Assembly (NCBI GenBank): GCA_903913215.1
Contig: CAIWKE010000028.1
Coordinates: forward strand, 124,001 to 188,000
Source of the DNA: an uncultured Holophagaceae bacterium
GTDB lineage: Bacteria; Acidobacteriota; Holophagae; Holophagales; Holophagaceae
Length of the DNA stretch: 64,000 nt
Direction of reading: 5' to 3'
Each line of letters opens with the position of its first letter. The first letter of the stretch is position 1. The translations under genes and the position numbers were made by a program. The notes below the pieces were generated by a model. The model ran no database searches. It was not told the origin of the DNA and saw only the letters and a list, made by a program, of their open reading frames with translations. Below, piece by piece: positions 8,953 through 17,713 of this stretch.

Positions 8953-10335
8953 CTAGTCGAGGGTGAACTCACCAGTGTCGATGATGGTGATCTCAGAATT
9001 GAGGAAGCTGGCGTTATAGCCCTTTTCCTTCAGCAGGTGGTAAGCCAACTCGGCGCGGACGCCGGTGGCGCAGTGGGTGATCACCAACAGGTTCTTGTCC
9101 TTCGGAAGTTCTCCAAGGCGCGAAGCCAGGGTCGGTTCCGGGATGACCAAGGCGCCCTTGATGATGCCATTCACAGCCTCATCGTGGTTCCGCACGTCCA
9201 GGATGAGCACATTCTTGCGCTGCTCAGGCGGGAGGCTGGCGATCCGGGTGAACTCATCGTTGGAGATAGAACCTGGGCGAGGTTTGGGGACATAGGTCAC
9301 TTGGGCTGCAAGCTTGCCTTGCACCACCGGGTAGCCTGCCGCTTGCCAGGCCTTGTAGCCGCCCTCCAGCACATTCACGCCGGGGTAGCCGGCCTTGACG
9401 AGGTCTTGGGCCAGTTTTCGGGCGGGCTCGCCGCCCTCCCCGTCCACCACCAGGACCGGGGGCTTCAGCTTCGGGCTAGGGAAGGTCCGCAGCAGTTCGG
9501 TGACTTTGGTCGGATCGGTGGCCACGGCCCCTTTGAGGGCCCCCAGTTCCGCTTGGCTGCGGAGGTCCAGGATGATCGTGGGGATGTCCTTGTCGAGGAT
9601 GGCCTCCTTGAAGGACCGGGGTGCGATGGTGCCGAAATTCCTGCCATACCAGCCGGGCATGCCATCCACGAAGACCTTGACGTTGGTGTAGCCCAGGGCC
9701 TGGGCCTTCCGGAAGGATCCAGGGCTCATGTTGCAGGTCTTTCCGCTGCAGTAGTAGACGATCAGAGCAGCCTTGTCCTTAGGCAGCTTGTCCACCAGCT
9801 TGTCGAAGGCGGGGAAGGGCAGGTTCACGGCGGTGGGGATGTTCCCCTCTTGGAAGCGGGGGGCCGGGCGGCAATCCACCAGGAAGTACTTTCCCTTTTC
9901 GGGTCCCAGGGCCACCAGCTTCTCGACCTCGGCCAGGGAGATCGTGTCGTTCATGGCGAGGGAGACCGGTGGCTTCACCGACACCACCTGGGCAGTCTTG
10001 ACGCCGCCCTGCTCGGTGTATTCCACCCGGACCTCGTGGCCCTTCTTGATGGCCTTGAGGGAATCCTCCACCGTGGCGCCAGCCTCGTGTGTCTTCACCT
10101 TCAGGCTGGCCTTGTCGTAGCGGAATACCTCCATGGCGTCATCGAGCTTCACCTGGAAGGAGTTGACCTTCCCGGCGAAGTTGTCGAAGGTGCCCCGGAT
10201 GTTGCCCGGAGCTGTCTGGTGGCAGTTGAGGCAGATCTTGGCGGCGTTGGGGCGGGGTGGAGCCGGGTCCGCGGCCCTCAGTGCGAAGGCGGCGGTACAG
10301 ATCCAGAGGATGGGCAGCAGGGTTGAGCGGGGCAT
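8953..10335 (-). CDS. exported haem c-binding protein with three rhodanese domains
   Basis: A 460-residue exported protein. The signal peptide is MPRSTLLPILWICTAAFALRA; the start at 10335 is set by a GGAGG five bases upstream. A single c-type haem motif CLNCH lies at residues 35-39. Three rhodanese-like domains follow. The first has a cysteine loop (YCSGKTCN). The second has lost the cysteine (VVDGEGGEP). The third has CATGVR. Rhodaneses carry persulfide sulfur on that cysteine, so two domains could bind sulfane sulfur in the periplasm next to a haem. It is the last gene of the cytochrome operon, 33 bases after the cytochrome b gene, supporting a role in sulfur-compound or related electron transfer. 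Confidence 0.85.
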   Translation of the reverse strand: MPRSTLLPILWICTAAFALRAADPAPPRPNAAKICLNCHQTAPGNIRGTFDNFAGKVNSFQVKLDDAMEVFRYDKASLKVKTHEAGATVEDSLKAIKKGHEVRVEYTEQGGVKTAQVVSVKPPVSLAMNDTISLAEVEKLVALGPEKGKYFLVDCRPAPRFQEGNIPTAVNLPFPAFDKLVDKLPKDKAALIVYYCSGKTCNMSPGSFRKAQALGYTNVKVFVDGMPGWYGRNFGTIAPRSFKEAILDKDIPTIILDLRSQAELGALKGAVATDPTKVTELLRTFPSPKLKPPVLVVDGEGGEPARKLAQDLVKAGYPGVNVLEGGYKAWQAAGYPVVQGKLAAQVTYVPKPRPGSISNDEFTRIASLPPEQRKNVLILDVRNHDEAVNGIIKGALVIPEPTLASRLGELPKDKNLLVITHCATGVRAELAYHLLKEKGYNASFLNSEITIIDTGEFTLD

Positions 10336-10368
10336 GTAACCTCCAGGGGGGCTGAACACGAAGGGGGC

Positions 10369-10992
10369 CTAGGCTTGGTCGAAATACTCGTCGTCGTGCA
10401 GGTCTTCCCAACCCAGCAGCATGGCCTTGAGGTTGGTCATGGGTGTGTGCCCGGTGGTGGTGAGATACACGTGGCCGATCAGGAAGGCCACCAGGGCGAA
10501 GGCGCCCAGCACGTGGACCACGGCGACGAACCAGAGCGAGGTCGGGGACCAGCCCATGGTGTGCTGCAGGTTCGGGTAGAAGAAGTAGAGGGCGCCGGTG
10601 CTGATCTGCACCGGGATGATGAGCACCTTGAAGCCCAGGTAGGCCAGGCGCTGCAGGGGATTGAGCTTGGCCATGCGGTGTTTCTTCACCGGGTGCGGAG
10701 CCCCCTTGAAGATGCCCGTCAGGTAGAAACGCACCATCTCCTGGAGGAACTTGCGGGTGGGGATGTACTGGCGCCATTCCCCAGTCGTGACATGCCAGAA
10801 GATGGCGAAAACGATGAGGGTGATTAGGGCCAGGGCCAGGTAGTTGTGGAGGGTGACCGCTCGGGCGAACCCGAAGATATGGGGCCCCACCCCCCGGATC
10901 TCAAAGCCCGTGAGCATCATGGTGAGGATCAGCAGGGCCTGGGCCCAGTGCCAGAAGCGTTCAAACAGTTCGTAGAGGACGACGCGTCGCAT
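10369..10992 (-). CDS. membrane cytochrome b (cytochrome b561/FdnI-like di-haem subunit)
   Basis: A 207-residue protein with four predicted membrane helices. The haem-ligand histidines expected for the FdnI/HydC-type cytochrome b family are visible: an FERFWHWAQA helix, VTLHNYLAL, a C-terminal VVHVLGAFAL helix and the LIGHVYLTTTGHTP motif. Such subunits exchange electrons between the menaquinone pool and a periplasmic partner. It begins within 10 bases of the stop of the octahaem cytochrome gene, with a TAGGAG ribosome-binding site. It is therefore the natural quinone-linked membrane anchor for that cytochrome. Confidence 0.88.
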   Translation of the reverse strand: MRRVVLYELFERFWHWAQALLILTMMLTGFEIRGVGPHIFGFARAVTLHNYLALALITLIVFAIFWHVTTGEWRQYIPTRKFLQEMVRFYLTGIFKGAPHPVKKHRMAKLNPLQRLAYLGFKVLIIPVQISTGALYFFYPNLQHTMGWSPTSLWFVAVVHVLGAFALVAFLIGHVYLTTTGHTPMTNLKAMLLGWEDLHDDEYFDQA

Positions 10993-10999
10993 GGGGCTC

Positions 11000-12613
11000 C
11001 TACTTCCGGCCGTGAAGGGTGCGGATGAGGCCGTGGGTGGCCACGCCGAGGATGGTGAGGAGGATCATGCCGAAGCCGAGCACATCAATGCCCATGCCCC
11101 GATCCCGTCCCAGGAGGTAGAAGCCGCCGACCTGTTCCAGACGCCCCTTCTTCGCGTGGCACTCGGTGCAGGCCAGGGCCTGCTCCTTGGGGGCGACCAT
11201 GTGGGTGATGGGCCACAGCATGGTGGTGCGGACGTAGTCGAACTTGCCGCTGTAGGGCAGGCCCGCCGTCTCCATGCCCTTCTGGACGGCGACATCCATC
11301 TTCCAGTCACCCCAGTAGGCGCCGCTGCCTGCAGGGCCATCCGTGAAGGGCGCCACGAAGGTGTTGTTCACGGGATCGAAGGGCTGGGTGGCCTCGTGGA
11401 ACTTGAAGGGCCAGATCTTGGCCTTGGGATCGGCGTAGGAACCCTCGGCAGGGTTCATCACGATGGGTCGGGCGGCAGGCAGCTTGTCCGTCAGGCGGAG
11501 GAAGTCGAGGTTGCCGTTGTACCAGACGTAGGTGGGCTTGACGTTCCGCTCCCAGACCATCTTCCCGCGCATGCTGGTGTAGGTGGGCCAGCCGTTGGCG
11601 TCCTTCTCTTCGTAGGGACGGCCGTCCTTCAGGCGGCCCGAGGTGGCCCAGTCCCAGAAGGTGTTGGTGGGCCGCTCGCCGCGGGCGAAGGCCGGAATGT
11701 GGCAAGTCTGGCAGGCGATCTTCTGGTAGTGGCGGTTCAGGACATAGGACTGGTGGGGCGCCACGGTGTGACAGGCCGGGCAGGCCATGCGGGAGATGCT
11801 TTCGCCCGCGAACTTGGGCTCGTCCCGGCGATCTGCGGGGATGACGTAGTTGGGTCCGCCGACTTTGTGCTCAGCGGAGGTGTGGCAATCGACACAGTCC
11901 ATGCCCGCGCCCTGCCTGGACATGTGGACGTCTTCAGTCCGGGGAGCCTTCAGGATCGTGTCGTCCAGGTCGCCGTGCTTGGTGGCATTGGCGCCGCCGC
12001 CGAAGAAATGGCAGGCTCCACAGTTTTTGTTGGTGGGGGTACCCACTTTCTGGGCGATCTCGGCCAGGGGAACGGCCGGATTGGGCATCCCCGCCCGCTC
12101 CTTTTCGTAGTCCCCCGTGGTGTCGTGGCAGACCAGGCAGTCTACGTTCTCCTGCTTGGTGAAGTCGAAGGTCTTGTCCTTGAAGCCATAGCCCGCATGG
12201 CAGCGGGTGCAGCCTTCGGTGTTGCCGCCCACGATGGTCAGGCAGTAGTTGTTCACGAGGGCCGTGGACTTGCCATAGCCGTTCTTCCCATCCTTGGCGA
12301 CATTCCAAGTCCAGTGGGAGGTGGCCATCATCTGCTCAGCGGCCTTGGTGTGGCAGGTGAGGCAGGCCCGGGTCACCGCAGGACCATCACCATCCTTGAA
12401 GGGCCCCTTCAGGGCGGTGAACTTGCTGTGGTCAGCTGTCTGGGAGCGCATCTTGGCCGCGTGGGAGGCCGTGAATGATCCGTGGCCGGCGGGATTGGGC
12501 CCAACCGCTTCCTGGGCGCCACCTGAAAACGGGATGAGAACCAGCAGGCCGGCAAGGACGCGGAGGAAGCCCCTCATCCTGGGCGGGGATGGTCTTCGGG
12601 GAGGGTGAGGCAT
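11000..12613 (-). CDS. octahaem c-type cytochrome, tetrathionate reductase family
   Basis: A 537-residue exported cytochrome with exactly eight CXXCH motifs in order: CLTCH, CTRCH, CLVCH, CGACH, CVDCH, CPACH, CQTCH, CTECH. An N-terminal signal peptide (MRGFLRVLAGLLVLIPFSGGAQ) follows a short basic extension. One hydrophobic helix at the C-terminus (VLGFGMILLTILGVATHGLI) should anchor it in the inner membrane. Haem number, order and length match the octahaem tetrathionate reductase (OTR) family, whose Shewanella member reduces tetrathionate, nitrite and hydroxylamine in vitro. The physiological substrate here is not shown by sequence. An AGGAG site precedes the ATG. Confidence 0.9.
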   Translation of the reverse strand: MPHPPRRPSPPRMRGFLRVLAGLLVLIPFSGGAQEAVGPNPAGHGSFTASHAAKMRSQTADHSKFTALKGPFKDGDGPAVTRACLTCHTKAAEQMMATSHWTWNVAKDGKNGYGKSTALVNNYCLTIVGGNTEGCTRCHAGYGFKDKTFDFTKQENVDCLVCHDTTGDYEKERAGMPNPAVPLAEIAQKVGTPTNKNCGACHFFGGGANATKHGDLDDTILKAPRTEDVHMSRQGAGMDCVDCHTSAEHKVGGPNYVIPADRRDEPKFAGESISRMACPACHTVAPHQSYVLNRHYQKIACQTCHIPAFARGERPTNTFWDWATSGRLKDGRPYEEKDANGWPTYTSMRGKMVWERNVKPTYVWYNGNLDFLRLTDKLPAARPIVMNPAEGSYADPKAKIWPFKFHEATQPFDPVNNTFVAPFTDGPAGSGAYWGDWKMDVAVQKGMETAGLPYSGKFDYVRTTMLWPITHMVAPKEQALACTECHAKKGRLEQVGGFYLLGRDRGMGIDVLGFGMILLTILGVATHGLIRTLHGRK

Positions 12614-12695
12614 GAAAGCTCCTGAACGCAGAGGGGCCGAACGGCTGCTGAAATGGGCAGGGCCCGTAGGCTGGGAGCCTCCGGGCCCTGCAGGT

Positions 12696-14405
12696 CTAGA
12701 ACTTCACTTCGATGGAGGCGTAGAAGTTCTTCACGGTGGCGGGGTAGCCGTACTGGAGGGTGGGGTTCTTGGCCAGGTCATTGGCCGCTTCCCAGGTGCC
12801 GGACATGGGCGAGGGGCCGATCTGCCAGCCGCTCATGGCGGAGGTGTAGCTGTAGTCGATGTAGCCGAGGCGCAGGGCCGCATTCTTGGCGAAGCGCCAG
12901 TGGATGTAGGCTTCCCACACGTCGCCGCGGGCCCCGAGCTTGTCGGTGTATTCACCGGTAGCGGGGGTGTAGGTCCACCAGCGGGGTGACCCGTGGTTGA
13001 ACTCCAGGCCCACGCCGAAGGTGGAGGTGGGGTCGTAGCGCACACCCACGTAGGTGGCCGAGGCGGTCTGGCTGTTGTTGGGATCGCCCATGAGGCCGCC
13101 GAACCCGGTCACCTGCATGGTCTTGCCGCCAAGGGCCGAGGGCATGGTCCAGTAGGCGCCGTACTGGGAGACTTGGCCATTGGGATGGCTCTTGAGGTAG
13201 CCGGCGCTCACGAAGTAGGTGAAGGTGTCGCCGATCTTGTGCTTCCAGGTGGCGGTCAGCTGGTCCAAGTCGCCCAGGTTGGCCGTGGCCGTGACGTACT
13301 GGGTGGAGGGCGTCATGCCGGGGATGGGGAAGTTGACCGTGCTTCCGTAGGGGATGTCGGTCATGTTGCCCATGCGGTTGAAGCCCAGGTAGAAGTTCGC
13401 GCTGTGCACCGATTCGCCGAGCTGGAAGAGCAGGGGCATGTCGAACATGACGCCCAGCACCGTGGTGTCCTTCAGGGACCCGAAGCTGCCGACCACCGGA
13501 CTGATGACCGAGGGGTTCGTGCCGTTGAAGCCCGTGAAGTTCATGCCCACGATGGTCGAGTTGTTCTTGACTGCGCCGCCGCCGCCGAAGCCGCTCTCAT
13601 AGCCCACGCCATAGCAGAAGCCCAGCAGGGTGCCTTCGGGGAGGCCGAGCTTCTCGAGCTCGAACTTCCAGCCGATGCCGTCGATGCTGGCGTTCACGGC
13701 CAGGGCCTGGGGCGTCGCGTTGCGCTCGCTGCCTTCGCGCACTTCAAACGGCGGGCCGTCGGAGGTGTTCTGGCGGCCGATGGAGAGGATGCTGAAGGCG
13801 GAGGGGAAGTGGTAGACCAGGCTGGCCCGCTCGACCAGCAGCGCGTCCGTGGCTGGAGTCTGGCCCGCCGTGAAGGAGGTGCTGATGGTATTGGGCGTGC
13901 CATTGAAGGTGGGCACGTCGGCCCCGCCATGGACCTTGTACATTACGAGCCGGCCCATGATCTTGGCGTTCTCGTTGATGGTCATGCCCATGTTCAGGCG
14001 GAGCCGGGTGGACCACTGGACGGAGTTCGTCAGATCCTGGGAGGCCATGGGTTGGGTCATGGGCATGAAGGGGTAGCTGTTCGGATTCGCGGGATTGAAT
14101 CCGCCGAGGGTGTAGCCCGGGTTGTTCGCGAAGCCCATGAACTGGTTGTAGGGCTTGAAGTGCTCCTGAGTGCTGTCGAAGCGGGTGCGGAGATCACCGC
14201 CCCAGGAGATGTTGTTGCCGGCGACCTTGGTCTCGACCTTGACCAGGCGGTTGTCGACTTCCTGGACGGCGGCGGTCTTTTCTTCGAGGGCCTGCAACTG
14301 CGTCTTCAGCTGCTTGATCTGCTTTTGCAGATCCTCATTGGTCTGGGCACTCAGGGCCACTGGCGCCAGCATGGCGACCAGGGCGAAGGTGATGCGGGAT
14401 TTCAT
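12696..14405 (-). CDS. outer-membrane beta-barrel protein with N-terminal coiled coil (DUF3373-like porin)
   Basis: A 569-residue protein with a signal peptide (MKSRITFALVAMLAPVALSA). A short coiled coil follows (residues ~22-60, EDLQKQIKQLKTQLQALEEK). The remainder is a long series of alternating amphipathic strands rich in Gly, Tyr and Asn, ending in an aromatic (IEVKF), the usual outer-membrane barrel C-terminal signature. The architecture suits DUF3373/trimeric-porin-like proteins. It is gene two of the cytochrome operon (AAGGAG ribosome-binding site). This placement suggests it admits substrate or forms a conduit with the cytochromes, which is inference. Confidence 0.8.
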   Translation of the reverse strand: MKSRITFALVAMLAPVALSAQTNEDLQKQIKQLKTQLQALEEKTAAVQEVDNRLVKVETKVAGNNISWGGDLRTRFDSTQEHFKPYNQFMGFANNPGYTLGGFNPANPNSYPFMPMTQPMASQDLTNSVQWSTRLRLNMGMTINENAKIMGRLVMYKVHGGADVPTFNGTPNTISTSFTAGQTPATDALLVERASLVYHFPSAFSILSIGRQNTSDGPPFEVREGSERNATPQALAVNASIDGIGWKFELEKLGLPEGTLLGFCYGVGYESGFGGGGAVKNNSTIVGMNFTGFNGTNPSVISPVVGSFGSLKDTTVLGVMFDMPLLFQLGESVHSANFYLGFNRMGNMTDIPYGSTVNFPIPGMTPSTQYVTATANLGDLDQLTATWKHKIGDTFTYFVSAGYLKSHPNGQVSQYGAYWTMPSALGGKTMQVTGFGGLMGDPNNSQTASATYVGVRYDPTSTFGVGLEFNHGSPRWWTYTPATGEYTDKLGARGDVWEAYIHWRFAKNAALRLGYIDYSYTSAMSGWQIGPSPMSGTWEAANDLAKNPTLQYGYPATVKNFYASIEVKF

Positions 14406-14454
14406 CGGATGTCTCCTTGGGTGAATCGAACCGGGGGGATTCGGGAAAGGTCGC

Positions 14455-14772
14455 TCAACCGCCGCAAGTCATGGGCTGGGGGGAGTCCGAGGCGTGGGCT
14501 GTCAGGAAGGTCTGGATGTCGTTCATCTGCTCAGGCTTCCCGACCTTGGTCAGGGGCTCGCTGCCCTTCTTGTGCTTGCCGGCTGCGAAGTAGGTCTTCC
14601 ACTGGGCCTGGGTCTTGATGAGGGGCGTGACTTCACCGCCAGGCTGGCCAACCACATGGCAGGACTTGCAGGACTTCTTGAAGAAGTACTTCCCCTTGGT
14701 GTCGCTGCCTTCGGCAGCCAGGGGCGCCGCGAGCAGGGCGAGGAGGGCGAGGAGGGGCACGGCGGTCCGCAT
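14455..14772 (-). CDS. small periplasmic monohaem cytochrome c
   Basis: A 105-residue protein with a signal peptide (MRTAVPLLALLALLAAPLAAEG) and one CKSCH haem motif near residue 35. A plausible distal Met lies in QMNDIQTFL. It is the first gene of the five-gene operon and its ATG is preceded by AAGGA. It probably shuttles electrons between the cytochrome b/octahaem pair and another periplasmic partner. The C-terminus (MTCGG) carries an extra unpaired cysteine. Confidence 0.87.
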   Translation of the reverse strand: MRTAVPLLALLALLAAPLAAEGSDTKGKYFFKKSCKSCHVVGQPGGEVTPLIKTQAQWKTYFAAGKHKKGSEPLTKVGKPEQMNDIQTFLTAHASDSPQPMTCGG

Positions 14773-14944: not shown

Positions 14945-15232
14945 TAATAATTAAATAACCAGACAGTAATTTAAAATGTATCTAATTCCTGGCACGGTTC
15001 TGGGGTCATGCCACTCAGGTGGAAGGTGCACCACCCGGAGAAAAATCCACACCCGGACATGGGCCAAAAGACCCTCGAACGCCGGTAAGCGTTTGGGGAG
15101 CTCCGCGACTTTCTGGCTGCCACCGAACCTCTGGGTGTGGCGGTGGCAGCCAGGCTCAGTGCCAAACCTAGGTTGTTCCAGCGCCCTCGCCCTAAGCTTG
15201 ATTACGCTGCTCTGATCGCCGAGGATGGCTTC

Positions 15233-15610
15233 ATGGATGAACCTCACCCCCTGCCCAGCCCTGAACAGGACGCCGCTCTGGCCCCCATCATCAAGCTGGA
15301 CTTGAAACGCCAAGTGCTGGTCTGTACCGCGAAAAGCTGCGCTGCCAACGGCTCCGAGGCCGTGTTGGAGGCCTTCCGCGCGCAGCTCGCGGCGGAACAG
15401 TTGCTTTTCTTCAAGGGCAACACCTCCGGTGAGATCCACTGCAGTCACTGCGGCTCCGTGGGTTTCTGCGCCATCGGCCCCGCTGTGCTGATCTACCCCG
15501 ATGGCATCTGGTACGCCCACGTCACTGTTGCGGACGTCCCCGAGATCATCGAGTCCCACCTCAAGGGCGGTGTGGCCGTTGAGCGTCTTGTCCGCAAGCG
15601 GCTGGGTTGA
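15233..15610 (+). CDS. (2Fe-2S) ferredoxin-domain protein, thioredoxin-fold type
   Basis: A 125-residue protein from ATG 15233 (GAGG eight bases upstream); an in-frame GTG at 15137 would add 32 residues. The core looks like the NuoE/HoxE-type thioredoxin-like ferredoxin: VLVCTAKSCAANGSE supplies a CX4C pair, and HCSHCGSVGFCAIGP sits where the second cysteine pair normally is. The tail VTVADVPEIIESHLKGG is also typical. The second pair is not the usual CX3C: serine occupies the expected first cysteine, with two extra cysteines just before. Cluster ligation may thus differ. It is divergent from the cytochrome operon. Confidence 0.75.
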   Translation: MDEPHPLPSPEQDAALAPIIKLDLKRQVLVCTAKSCAANGSEAVLEAFRAQLAAEQLLFFKGNTSGEIHCSHCGSVGFCAIGPAVLIYPDGIWYAHVTVADVPEIIESHLKGGVAVERLVRKRLG

Positions 15611-16103: not shown

Positions 16104-16682
16104 TCAGCGTCCTGCCTCGAATTCGCTCCGTTCTTCGGGGGTATCCACATCAGCCCACTCGGGGCCCTCCTGCGGCAGGGCGAGGTGGGGCAGGGCCTGG
16201 ACCAGCCTCAGCAGGGAGGCGCCAGTGCTTTGGGACAGGGCCGGCCGCAGGGCCTGGGGCAGCCAGCCGCCGAGGGGCTGCAGATGCCCTTCATGGAGGG
16301 CCAGCACCCAGTGGGCCGCGGCGGGATCCGCGGCTTCACAGGTCTGGGTCCAGGCCTCGAGGCGCTCGGGGGTCCAGCGCACCTGATCGCAGGCCACCAC
16401 CCACCAGCGCTCGACGTTGAGCTGAGCAGCAGGCAGCAGGATCTTCGCCCAGTGGCGCAGGGCCAGGGCCGGTCCTTGGCGGGGATCATCCAGCCGGGGC
16501 AGGGCGGGGTGGTCTGGCAGGGCCTCGCCTAGTATCTGGATCGGGCCCTCTGGATGGAGCGCCTGGAAGACCCGCACCAGGTGCCCGCCCCAGGTGCCGC
16601 CCTCGGGATGGGCGAGGTCCTGCTTGGCGGTCCCCATGCGGCGACTGCCCCCGCCGCTGAGCAGCAGGAGTCCGGCCTTCAC
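16104..16682 (-). CDS. mobA: molybdenum cofactor nucleotidyltransferase-like protein (MobA-type)
   Basis: A 192-residue NTP-transferase. The nucleotide-binding signature LLLLSGGGSRRMGTAK corresponds to the MobA/MocA LAGGxSxRMGxxK loop, and an ACDQV segment stands at the metal-binding Asp position. MobA attaches GMP to molybdopterin. The start is the GTG at 16682, whose GTGA overlaps the stop of moaA, a translational-coupling arrangement; an open frame extends upstream to 16742 but is not domain-like. Pairing with moaA supports a cofactor role, although a MocA-type specificity cannot be excluded. Confidence 0.75.
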   Translation of the reverse strand: MKAGLLLLSGGGSRRMGTAKQDLAHPEGGTWGGHLVRVFQALHPEGPIQILGEALPDHPALPRLDDPRQGPALALRHWAKILLPAAQLNVERWWVVACDQVRWTPERLEAWTQTCEAADPAAAHWVLALHEGHLQPLGGWLPQALRPALSQSTGASLLRLVQALPHLALPQEGPEWADVDTPEERSEFEAGR

Positions 16683-17713
16683 CCGCCCACCTGCCAGGGG
16701 CCCCAGGGCAGGCCGGACTGCCCCAGGGGTAGGGCGGGACACTCCACCTTCTGAGTCAGGGCCTGGCGCACGAGGCGCACCAGCTCCTCATGGGTGGCGT
16801 GGTGGCGCAGGGGCCCCAGCAGGTCCACGGGCTCGTTGGCGAAAATGCAGGCCTTCAGCAGGCCCCGGCTGCTGAGGCGCACCCGGTGGCAGCGGTCGCA
16901 GACCGGCGTGCTGAGGGTGGCGATGATCCCCACCAGGGCGGCGCTGCCCGGGATCCTGAAGAGTCGCGCGGGGCCTTCCTCGGGCCCCAGCGAGGGCTCC
17001 GGCTCCAGGGTCTGGCCCAGGCCCTGGAGCAGCGTCTGGAAGATCTCCGCCGCCGCCATGAACCGGCCGCCGCGCCAACCATTGGCCAGGTGTGGCTGGG
17101 CAGTAGCGCCCTGGTGCAGGGTGCTGCCCGTGTGGGGCATGTACTCGATGAAGCGGATCTGGACTCCCTCCCGCTGGGCCAGACGGGCCAGGGGCAGGAT
17201 CTGATCCTCGTTGGCCCCCCGGAGCACCACGGCGTTCAGCTTGGTCTCCAGCCCCACGGCCCGGGCCGCATCTAGGCCAGCCAGGGCTCGGCTCAGCCCG
17301 TCCCGGCCCGACAGGCGCCGGAAGCTCTCACGGTCCGCCGCGTCCAGGCGGAGGTTGATGCCGGCCAGGCCCGCGTCGCGCAGGCCCCGGGCGCGCCGGG
17401 CCAGGAGGAGGCCATTGGTGCTGAGGTGGACCCGGCCCTCCACCTCGGGGCTGAGGCCAGCGATGAGGGGCTCCAGGTCCCGGCGAAGCAGCGGCTCGCC
17501 CCCGGTGAGGCGCACCTTCCGGGCGCCCAGGCTGGTGAAGACCTGCGCCAGGCGCAGGACTTCCTGCCGGGTCATGGGCGAACTGAGGCTCTTGAGCGAG
17601 TCCGGGGCCGGTGAGTAGGCACTGACCAGATTGCAGCGGGCCGTGACGGAAAGGCGGAGGTAGGTGATGTCCCGACCCAGCCCGTCCCGGAGGCACTCCT
17701 TCACCCGGAGCAT
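16679..17713 (-). CDS. moaA: MoaA-like protein lacking two of three radical-SAM cysteines
   Basis: A 344-residue protein aligned by eye to GTP 3',8-cyclase: MLRVKECLRDGLGRDITYLRLSV start region, GGEP motif, a C-terminal second-cluster motif CDRCHRVRLSSRGLLKAC, and a final Gly-Gly. MoaA normally has CX3CX2C for the SAM-binding 4Fe-4S cluster. Here the triplet is C27, S31, S34 (codons TGC, AGT, TCA at 17635-17633, 17623-17621, 17614-17612). This should prevent normal radical-SAM chemistry. The second cluster and GG tail are intact, and the gene is coupled to mobA, so it is not an obvious decayed pseudogene. Open frame and alternative starts extend to 17827. Confidence 0.82.
   Translation of the reverse strand: MLRVKECLRDGLGRDITYLRLSVTARCNLVSAYSPAPDSLKSLSSPMTRQEVLRLAQVFTSLGARKVRLTGGEPLLRRDLEPLIAGLSPEVEGRVHLSTNGLLLARRARGLRDAGLAGINLRLDAADRESFRRLSGRDGLSRALAGLDAARAVGLETKLNAVVLRGANEDQILPLARLAQREGVQIRFIEYMPHTGSTLHQGATAQPHLANGWRGGRFMAAAEIFQTLLQGLGQTLEPEPSLGPEEGPARLFRIPGSAALVGIIATLSTPVCDRCHRVRLSSRGLLKACIFANEPVDLLGPLRHHATHEELVRLVRQALTQKVECPALPLGQSGLPWGPWQVGG

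Follow-up and report, generated by a model that had tools for sequence, protein, structure and literature searches.

What becomes of a MoaA that has lost most of the motif for its radical-SAM cluster? The question is raised by moaA2, a gene found in a 64,000-nucleotide stretch of DNA (hereafter the window) from an uncultured Holophagaceae bacterium, which encodes a MoaA paralogue without the radical-SAM cluster motif. In MoaA itself, the N-terminal cluster cleaves SAM, the C-terminal one holds GTP, and both are essential for activity according to the accessible part of PMC5352715. An earlier, sequence-only reading of the window had proposed that either a different chemistry or regulatory role exists, or the synthesis of the molybdenum cofactor relies on another MoaA. 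Here, moaA2 was compared with its orthologues in the genus, with MoaA loci from the rest of the phylum and with known systems, and its gene neighbourhood was considered alongside.

Methods

The genome that contains the window (G000; 3.9 Mb, 41 contigs, 95% complete) was analyzed with a genus set of 47 genomes (Geothrix or close kin). MoaA2 matches were accepted at an E-value of 1e-60 or better, which gave 39 of the 47 genomes, and all 39 proteins were read. For the phylum survey, 129 genomes were searched and 113 MoaA loci were read, 109 of them from outside the genus; a stricter motif script placed 107 of the 113 loci, and the other six, which were without the TGGEP string, passed a looser regular expression only. 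Despite the completeness rating of the G000 assembly, rpoB had zero matches in it, and because of this six other proteins were used for the species tree (TatD, acyl-CoA dehydrogenase, ferredoxin, UbiE, a protein of unknown function, and MoaA1), which covers the 32 genomes with > 400 aligned residues out of 41 given. Selection was estimated with a custom-written codon branch model (GY94 type, F3x4) on the species tree, for 32 of the 39 genomes, and on a MoaA2 tree with all 39.

Motifs and structure model of MoaA2

moaA2 lies on the minus strand at 16679–17713 (start 17713, stop 16679), is open throughout its frame and encodes 344 amino acids; the sequence-only reading had the coordinates right and left out the strand. 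The codons confirm the remnant of the CX3CX2C motif as it had been reported (17612–17635, minus strand), with C27 (TGC) followed by S31 (AGT) and S34 (TCA). In addition, R122 (17348–17350, minus strand) replaces the SLD serine, which is S124 of the intact orthologues. An in-frame insert of 14 residues (residues 197–210; 17084–17125, minus strand), recognized in the alignment and modelled with pLDDT < 50, was absent from the other orthologues aligned, and both this insert and an altered tail ahead of the terminal GG are unconserved among the orthologues read. The translation also bears out the motifs that had been described as intact, namely GGEP, the auxiliary CX2CX13C (C272, C275, and C289) and the terminal GG (16682–16687, minus strand). 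The stretch with the auxiliary motif (16847–16900, minus strand) includes the equivalents of S. aureus R266 and R268, and the equivalent of R17 is present as well, the basis for all three being the title of PDB 2fb2 ("Arg17/266/268/Ala triple mutant").

Against TIGR02666 the protein scored 251.2 bits, below the curated cut-off of 284.05, compared with 317.9–328.4 bits for the three intact MoaA2 that were tested. Its AlphaFold model (pLDDT 78.5, pTM 0.81) had a MoaA, 1tv7_A, as best Foldseek match (TM 0.76, E 2.7e-26). The likeness to the MoaA of S. aureus (1tv7, 1tv8, 2fb2, and 2fb3) extends over the whole length and comprises the fold, GGEP, the auxiliary motif, the three arginines and the terminal GG, whereas CX3CX2C, the SLD serine and a TIGR02666 score at the cut-off are missing. 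Viewed as a member of the active radical SAM superfamily, the protein is short of the three-cysteine motif, carries arginine instead of the SLD serine, and keeps GGEP.

We take GGEP to be a SAM-site motif and, from the S. aureus structures, K160 to contact GTP and the SLD serine to contact SAM. As GGEP is kept in all of these proteins, the split into a lost SAM half and a retained GTP half is not clean. A count of the residues lost in the one half and retained in the other was dropped as proof for this reason, and also because the residues had been picked after seeing the sequences. TIGR04347 (pseudo-SAM/SPASM), by its label presumably a radical-SAM-like family that lacks the SAM cluster, matched the MoaA2 of the window weakly (68.5 bits, below its cut-off of 525) and an intact MoaA2 more strongly (78.1 bits).

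A complete MoaA1 in the same genome

The search for a second MoaA that had been suggested earlier was successful. A complete MoaA1 is encoded at G000:C11:206390-207517, with the motif CNFRCGYC, the auxiliary cysteines, the terminal GG, and 353.6 bits against TIGR02666 (cut-off 284.05), and moaC is encoded in the genome as well. The synthesis of the molybdenum cofactor therefore need not rely on moaA2, which confirms the option of another MoaA raised by the sequence-only reading. The genome encodes two enzymes of the DMSO-reductase family, plus a weak third match under the cut-off (PF00384).

MoaA2 orthologues in the genus

CX3CX2C is intact in 35 of the 39 MoaA2 orthologues and reads C/S/S in G000. 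The orthologues of G019 and G028, which are identical at 301 of 335 residues (90%), have lost all three motif cysteines (S, R, and an alignment gap), and their first cysteine does not come before residue 191; one of these two assemblies is a single contig. All three proteins keep the auxiliary CX2CX13C, R20/R265/R267, K160, GGEP, and GG (numbering of the intact orthologue L004). The fourth divergent copy, that of G067 (L069 7917-8792), keeps the cysteines and is without the SLD serine, one GTP-binding arginine, and whole segments. At the SLD position, serine is found in 35/35 intact orthologues and R, N, N, and R in the four divergent ones, and 167 columns that are invariant among the 35 intact proteins are altered 31 times in G000, 37 in G028, 38 in G019, and 66 in G067. 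In the first genus set, CX3CX2C was present in 26/26 MoaA1 loci. The genome of G067 has MoaA1 and moaC, yet only a single weak PF00384 match (29.8 bits).

Intact cysteines in close relatives, next to a gene decayed to a lone pseudogene, had been named beforehand as an outcome that would count against the claim. The intact cysteines are indeed the rule in the genus, but moaA2 of the window does not look like a simple pseudogene.

Phylogeny and selection

In the six-protein tree, G000 stands beside the G021/G003/G035 group (support 91), G019 and G028 form a pair (100) near G036/G012/G063 (70), and G067 is placed elsewhere. The simplest reading of this tree, in which some supports are low, is that the divergence of G000, of G019/G028, and of G067 represents three separate events; the residues, too, differ between the losses in G000 and in G019/G028.

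On the species tree, the background had an omega of 0.044 and G000 one of 0.105; the value was 0.213 on the stem of G019/G028, 0.050 on the two tips of this pair, and 0.138 in G067. The tips did not differ from the background (p 0.57) and omega 1 was rejected for them (p 1e-50); the G000 branch was 2.4-fold above the background (p 0.001), and omega 1 was again rejected (p 5.5e-18). The MoaA2 tree gave similar values (background 0.049, G000 0.114, stem 0.231, tips 0.051, and G067 0.140), with p 0.010 for G000 against the background, 1e-6 for G000 against 1 and 3e-50 for the tips against 1. Between G028 and G019, dN was 0.053 and dS 0.467 (NG86). A burst on the stem followed by tips at background level indicates that the putatively radical-dead form was fixed and then held, and, as judged from these codon comparisons, this form is under purifying selection in G019/G028. 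The suggestion of a different chemistry or regulatory role gains indirect support here, as the same kind of protein is maintained in these two genomes.

For the window gene itself the picture is less direct. Its species is represented by a single sequence, so that a later constrained phase would be invisible. When omega was estimated tip by tip, G000 ranked third of 32, behind G067 and G025, the value of the latter being unreliable because its branch is very short, and arithmetic from these values shows that the excess of amino-acid change in G000 could have arisen if about 6% of its branch had been neutral, an extent of change that simulated neutral genes often reached before any stop arose. 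In neutral simulations, 51, 18, and 14.5% of the genes were still stop-free at 10, 20, and 30% amino-acid change, which makes the open frame weak evidence of function for moaA2.

Gene neighbourhood

The stop codon of moaA2 and the GTG start codon of a MobA-like nucleotidyltransferase gene (16104–16682, minus strand) overlap in the sequence GGGTGAAG. The GTGA coupling to mobA described by the sequence-only reading stands as far as the overlap is concerned, and the identity of mobA is only probable: the protein matched PF12804 (45.1 bits, cut-off 27), the NCBIfam search gave zero matches, and TIGR02665 does not find it. This gene was not found adjoining moaA2 in G028, G019, and G067. Another, TIGR02665-like gene is located at G000:C39:5027-5554, and the genus may hold two MobA-like proteins with different tasks.

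Further along, the window encodes a thioredoxin-like [2Fe-2S] ferredoxin, a neighbour conserved in the genus (15137–15610, plus strand; PF01257, 30.5 bits), and then, all on the minus strand, a small cytochrome c (14455–14772; PF00034), a DUF3373 protein (12696–14405; PF11853, 200.4 bits), an octaheme cytochrome c of the tetrathionate reductase family (11000–12613; TIGR04315, 538 bits, cut-off 375), a PhsC-like cytochrome b561 (10369–10992; PF01292; NF011582 97.2 bits, below its cut-off of 204), and a protein with three rhodanese domains (8953–10359; PF00581 in three stretches). Where the contigs of genomes with an intact MoaA2 reach far enough, the genes are arranged as TatD, moaA2, MobA-like, ferredoxin, cytochrome c, DUF3373, and a PhsA-like molybdoenzyme (617.8 bits against NF012032, cut-off 694), after which come an Fe-S subunit, NrfD, and a TorD-like chaperone. 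By synteny, the cytochrome c and DUF3373 genes are therefore common to a molybdenum and a haem version of the island, and the octaheme cytochrome sits at the place of the relatives' PhsA-like gene. G000 and G028 share the haem version, with the octaheme cytochrome and cytochrome b561 after these two genes, and this whole part of the island was absent from the stretches read in G019 and G067. An octaheme island similar to 8953–14772 of the window also occurs at other places in G034 (about 7 kb off moaA2), G013, and G011, and the octaheme cytochrome is found in 21 of the 47 genomes, in some of them together with PhsA.

A PhsA-like gene was detected in 28 of the 35 genomes with intact MoaA2 vs. 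0 of the 4 with a divergent one (Fisher p 0.004, a value to be read with about three events in mind and not four independent ones), and in a hand count limited to genomes ≥ 90% complete and ≤ 5% contaminated the figures were 21/21 and 0/4. With MoaA1 as yardstick in 30 genomes, the seven most accelerated MoaA2 were those of G067, G019, G028, G000, G068, G034, and G011, all without PhsA, although the seven genomes had been separated from the 23-genome reference group ahead of the acceleration count. The cysteines are intact in G034, G011, and G068 though PhsA is absent; the remaining genomes with intact MoaA2 and without a PhsA match (G064, G036, G013, and G004) are 58–88% complete, and in one of them, G036 (84% complete, with its moaA2 on a contig of 3.7 kb), MoaA2 is unaccelerated. 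Conversely, G061, G008, and G030 have PhsA but no MoaA2 match, from which it follows that MoaA2 is not strictly needed for PhsA. Across these genomes the decay of MoaA2 tracks the apparent loss of the neighbouring PhsA-like operon, and the link is not strict.

Fate of the window gene

Our preferred reading, in which we have modest rather than strong confidence, is that moaA2 of the window encodes a MoaA pseudoenzyme that was freed by an operon swap and has probably been retained as a non-catalytic GTP/Fe-S-binding protein. The MoaA2 of the genus would be a second GTP 3',8-cyclase, its gene usually near a PhsA-like operon (thiosulfate/polysulfide reductase type) and that of MoaA1 elsewhere. In G000, the PhsA-like operon is missing and its position is taken by a haem-based octaheme cytochrome, so that the extra cofactor supply would no longer be needed; MoaA2 would then have lost its SAM-cleaving half (the SLD serine along with two of the three cysteines of the cluster) and with it the ability to start radical chemistry, leaving MoaA1 and MoaC to make the cofactor precursor. 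With the auxiliary [4Fe-4S] site, the GTP-binding arginines and the GG tail kept, the protein may still bind GTP on the auxiliary cluster without turning it over and could, for instance, regulate MoaA1 as a binding partner or serve as its decoy, MoaA1 as the partner being a guess. The loss of cyclase activity in the window MoaA2 is, by inference from its residues, nearly certain; that a non-catalytic function has been kept is well supported for G019/G028 and probable for the copy of the window.

The window copy could, however, simply be decaying, an account to which we give real weight while thinking it rather doubtful. Selection would have been lifted after the loss of the PhsA-like operon, the time elapsed would have been short enough for the frame to be stop-free so far, and G019/G028 would be a separate story. 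The raised omega of the G000 branch (2.4 times the background), the presence of MoaA1, the 31 of 167 otherwise invariant columns altered, and the co-occurrence of acceleration with PhsA loss all fit such a course; the neutral simulations make an open frame not improbable, and an omega of 0.105 could also result if a brief neutral phase had come at the end of a long time under constraint. What speaks for retention is that omega 1 was rejected for the branch as a whole on both trees, that the auxiliary cysteines, the three arginines, K160, GG, and GGEP have all survived, that the overlapping MobA-like gene is still present, and that a like loss in another lineage was followed by full constraint. 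That any of this reflects a sequencing or assembly error is hardly credible: beyond the fact that the assembly is a draft in 41 contigs, nothing points that way, and the judgement of the sequence-only reading is strengthened by the segment that is CNLACVYCKPRTG in the relatives and reads CNLVSAYSPAPDS throughout in the window and by the in-frame insert, neither of which is a single-base difference, by many codon changes across an open frame with omega < 1, and by the losses that recur in the assemblies of G019 and G028.

Continued catalysis without the SAM cluster, in the form of a novel GTP reaction at the auxiliary site, appears improbable; it would account for the retention of the auxiliary ligands and GTP-binding residues and for the purifying selection in G019/G028, but nothing that G000, G019, and G028 have in common around moaA2 hints at a new pathway, and we know of no catalytic precedent. 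Even less probable is a surviving GTP 3',8-cyclase that still binds its SAM cluster through serine or other ligands. In its favour, the window protein retains C27 and GGEP, but G019 and G028 are cysteine-free before residue 191, the SLD serine is gone in 4/4 divergent copies, a complete MoaA1 exists, and both clusters of MoaA are essential (PMC5352715, as far as the accessible part goes).

Known systems and MoaA loci outside the genus

A close counterpart to these proteins was made by mutation. The accessible part of PMC9012708 describes the C24S/C28S/C31S mutant of MoaA (Lees 2009, as cited there), in which only the second cluster is present and ENDOR shows GTP bound to it. The radical-SAM cluster is removed and the auxiliary ligands are kept in both cases, but the mutant was constructed deliberately for spectroscopy, whereas the losses reported here are natural, occurred in two lineages and appear to be selected for in at least one of them. 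The ligand set of the natural proteins is close to that of the mutant, and a GTP/Fe-S binder unable to turn GTP over is the most economical reading. A second parallel is offered by M. tuberculosis, in which moaA1-D1 exists beside moaA2-D2 as an extra set serving mainly nitrate respiration (PMC5720804, in its accessible part). There, too, a second MoaA set works mainly for one respiratory enzyme; the extra set is a gain, with no loss of radical-SAM cysteines reported in that part of the paper, while the window copy would be a remnant.

A natural MoaA without the SAM cluster separates the halves of a textbook two-cluster radical enzyme, something previously done by mutation. If functional, it would mean that the auxiliary GTP-binding cluster is useful alone and would suggest a level of control in molybdenum cofactor synthesis. 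The locus is also a clear example of a cofactor gene whose fate changes once a haem enzyme takes over from a molybdenum enzyme. Tentatively, although we find it plausible, the conversion of MoaA into a radical-free GTP/[4Fe-4S]-binding protein kept by selection may have happened at least twice in this one genus, each time without the neighbouring molybdoenzyme operon, the product probably serving the other MoaA of the genome as regulatory subunit, sensor or decoy.

Searches of the open-licence literature for cysteine-less pseudoenzymes among MoaA and other radical-SAM proteins, and for MoaA paralogues, listed no natural MoaA without the motif, and none of the 113 loci read, 109 of them from outside the genus, was without CX3CX2C (two were checked by eye). 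Two of the 113 loci (L175 and L195) had been flagged as motif-less by the regular expression; on reading, they have long upstream frames and intact motifs (CNLRCHYC and CNFKCSYC). For annotation, the window gene is a warning that a "MoaA" match need not be a cyclase. Eight of the loci outside the genus (L210, L211, and L213–L218) matched TIGR02666 over roughly the first 155–283 positions, with scores under the cut-off and C-terminal halves that look divergent or cut. In L218, for which the match ends at model position 155 and the auxiliary motif is missing in the frame read, the gene may be frameshifted.
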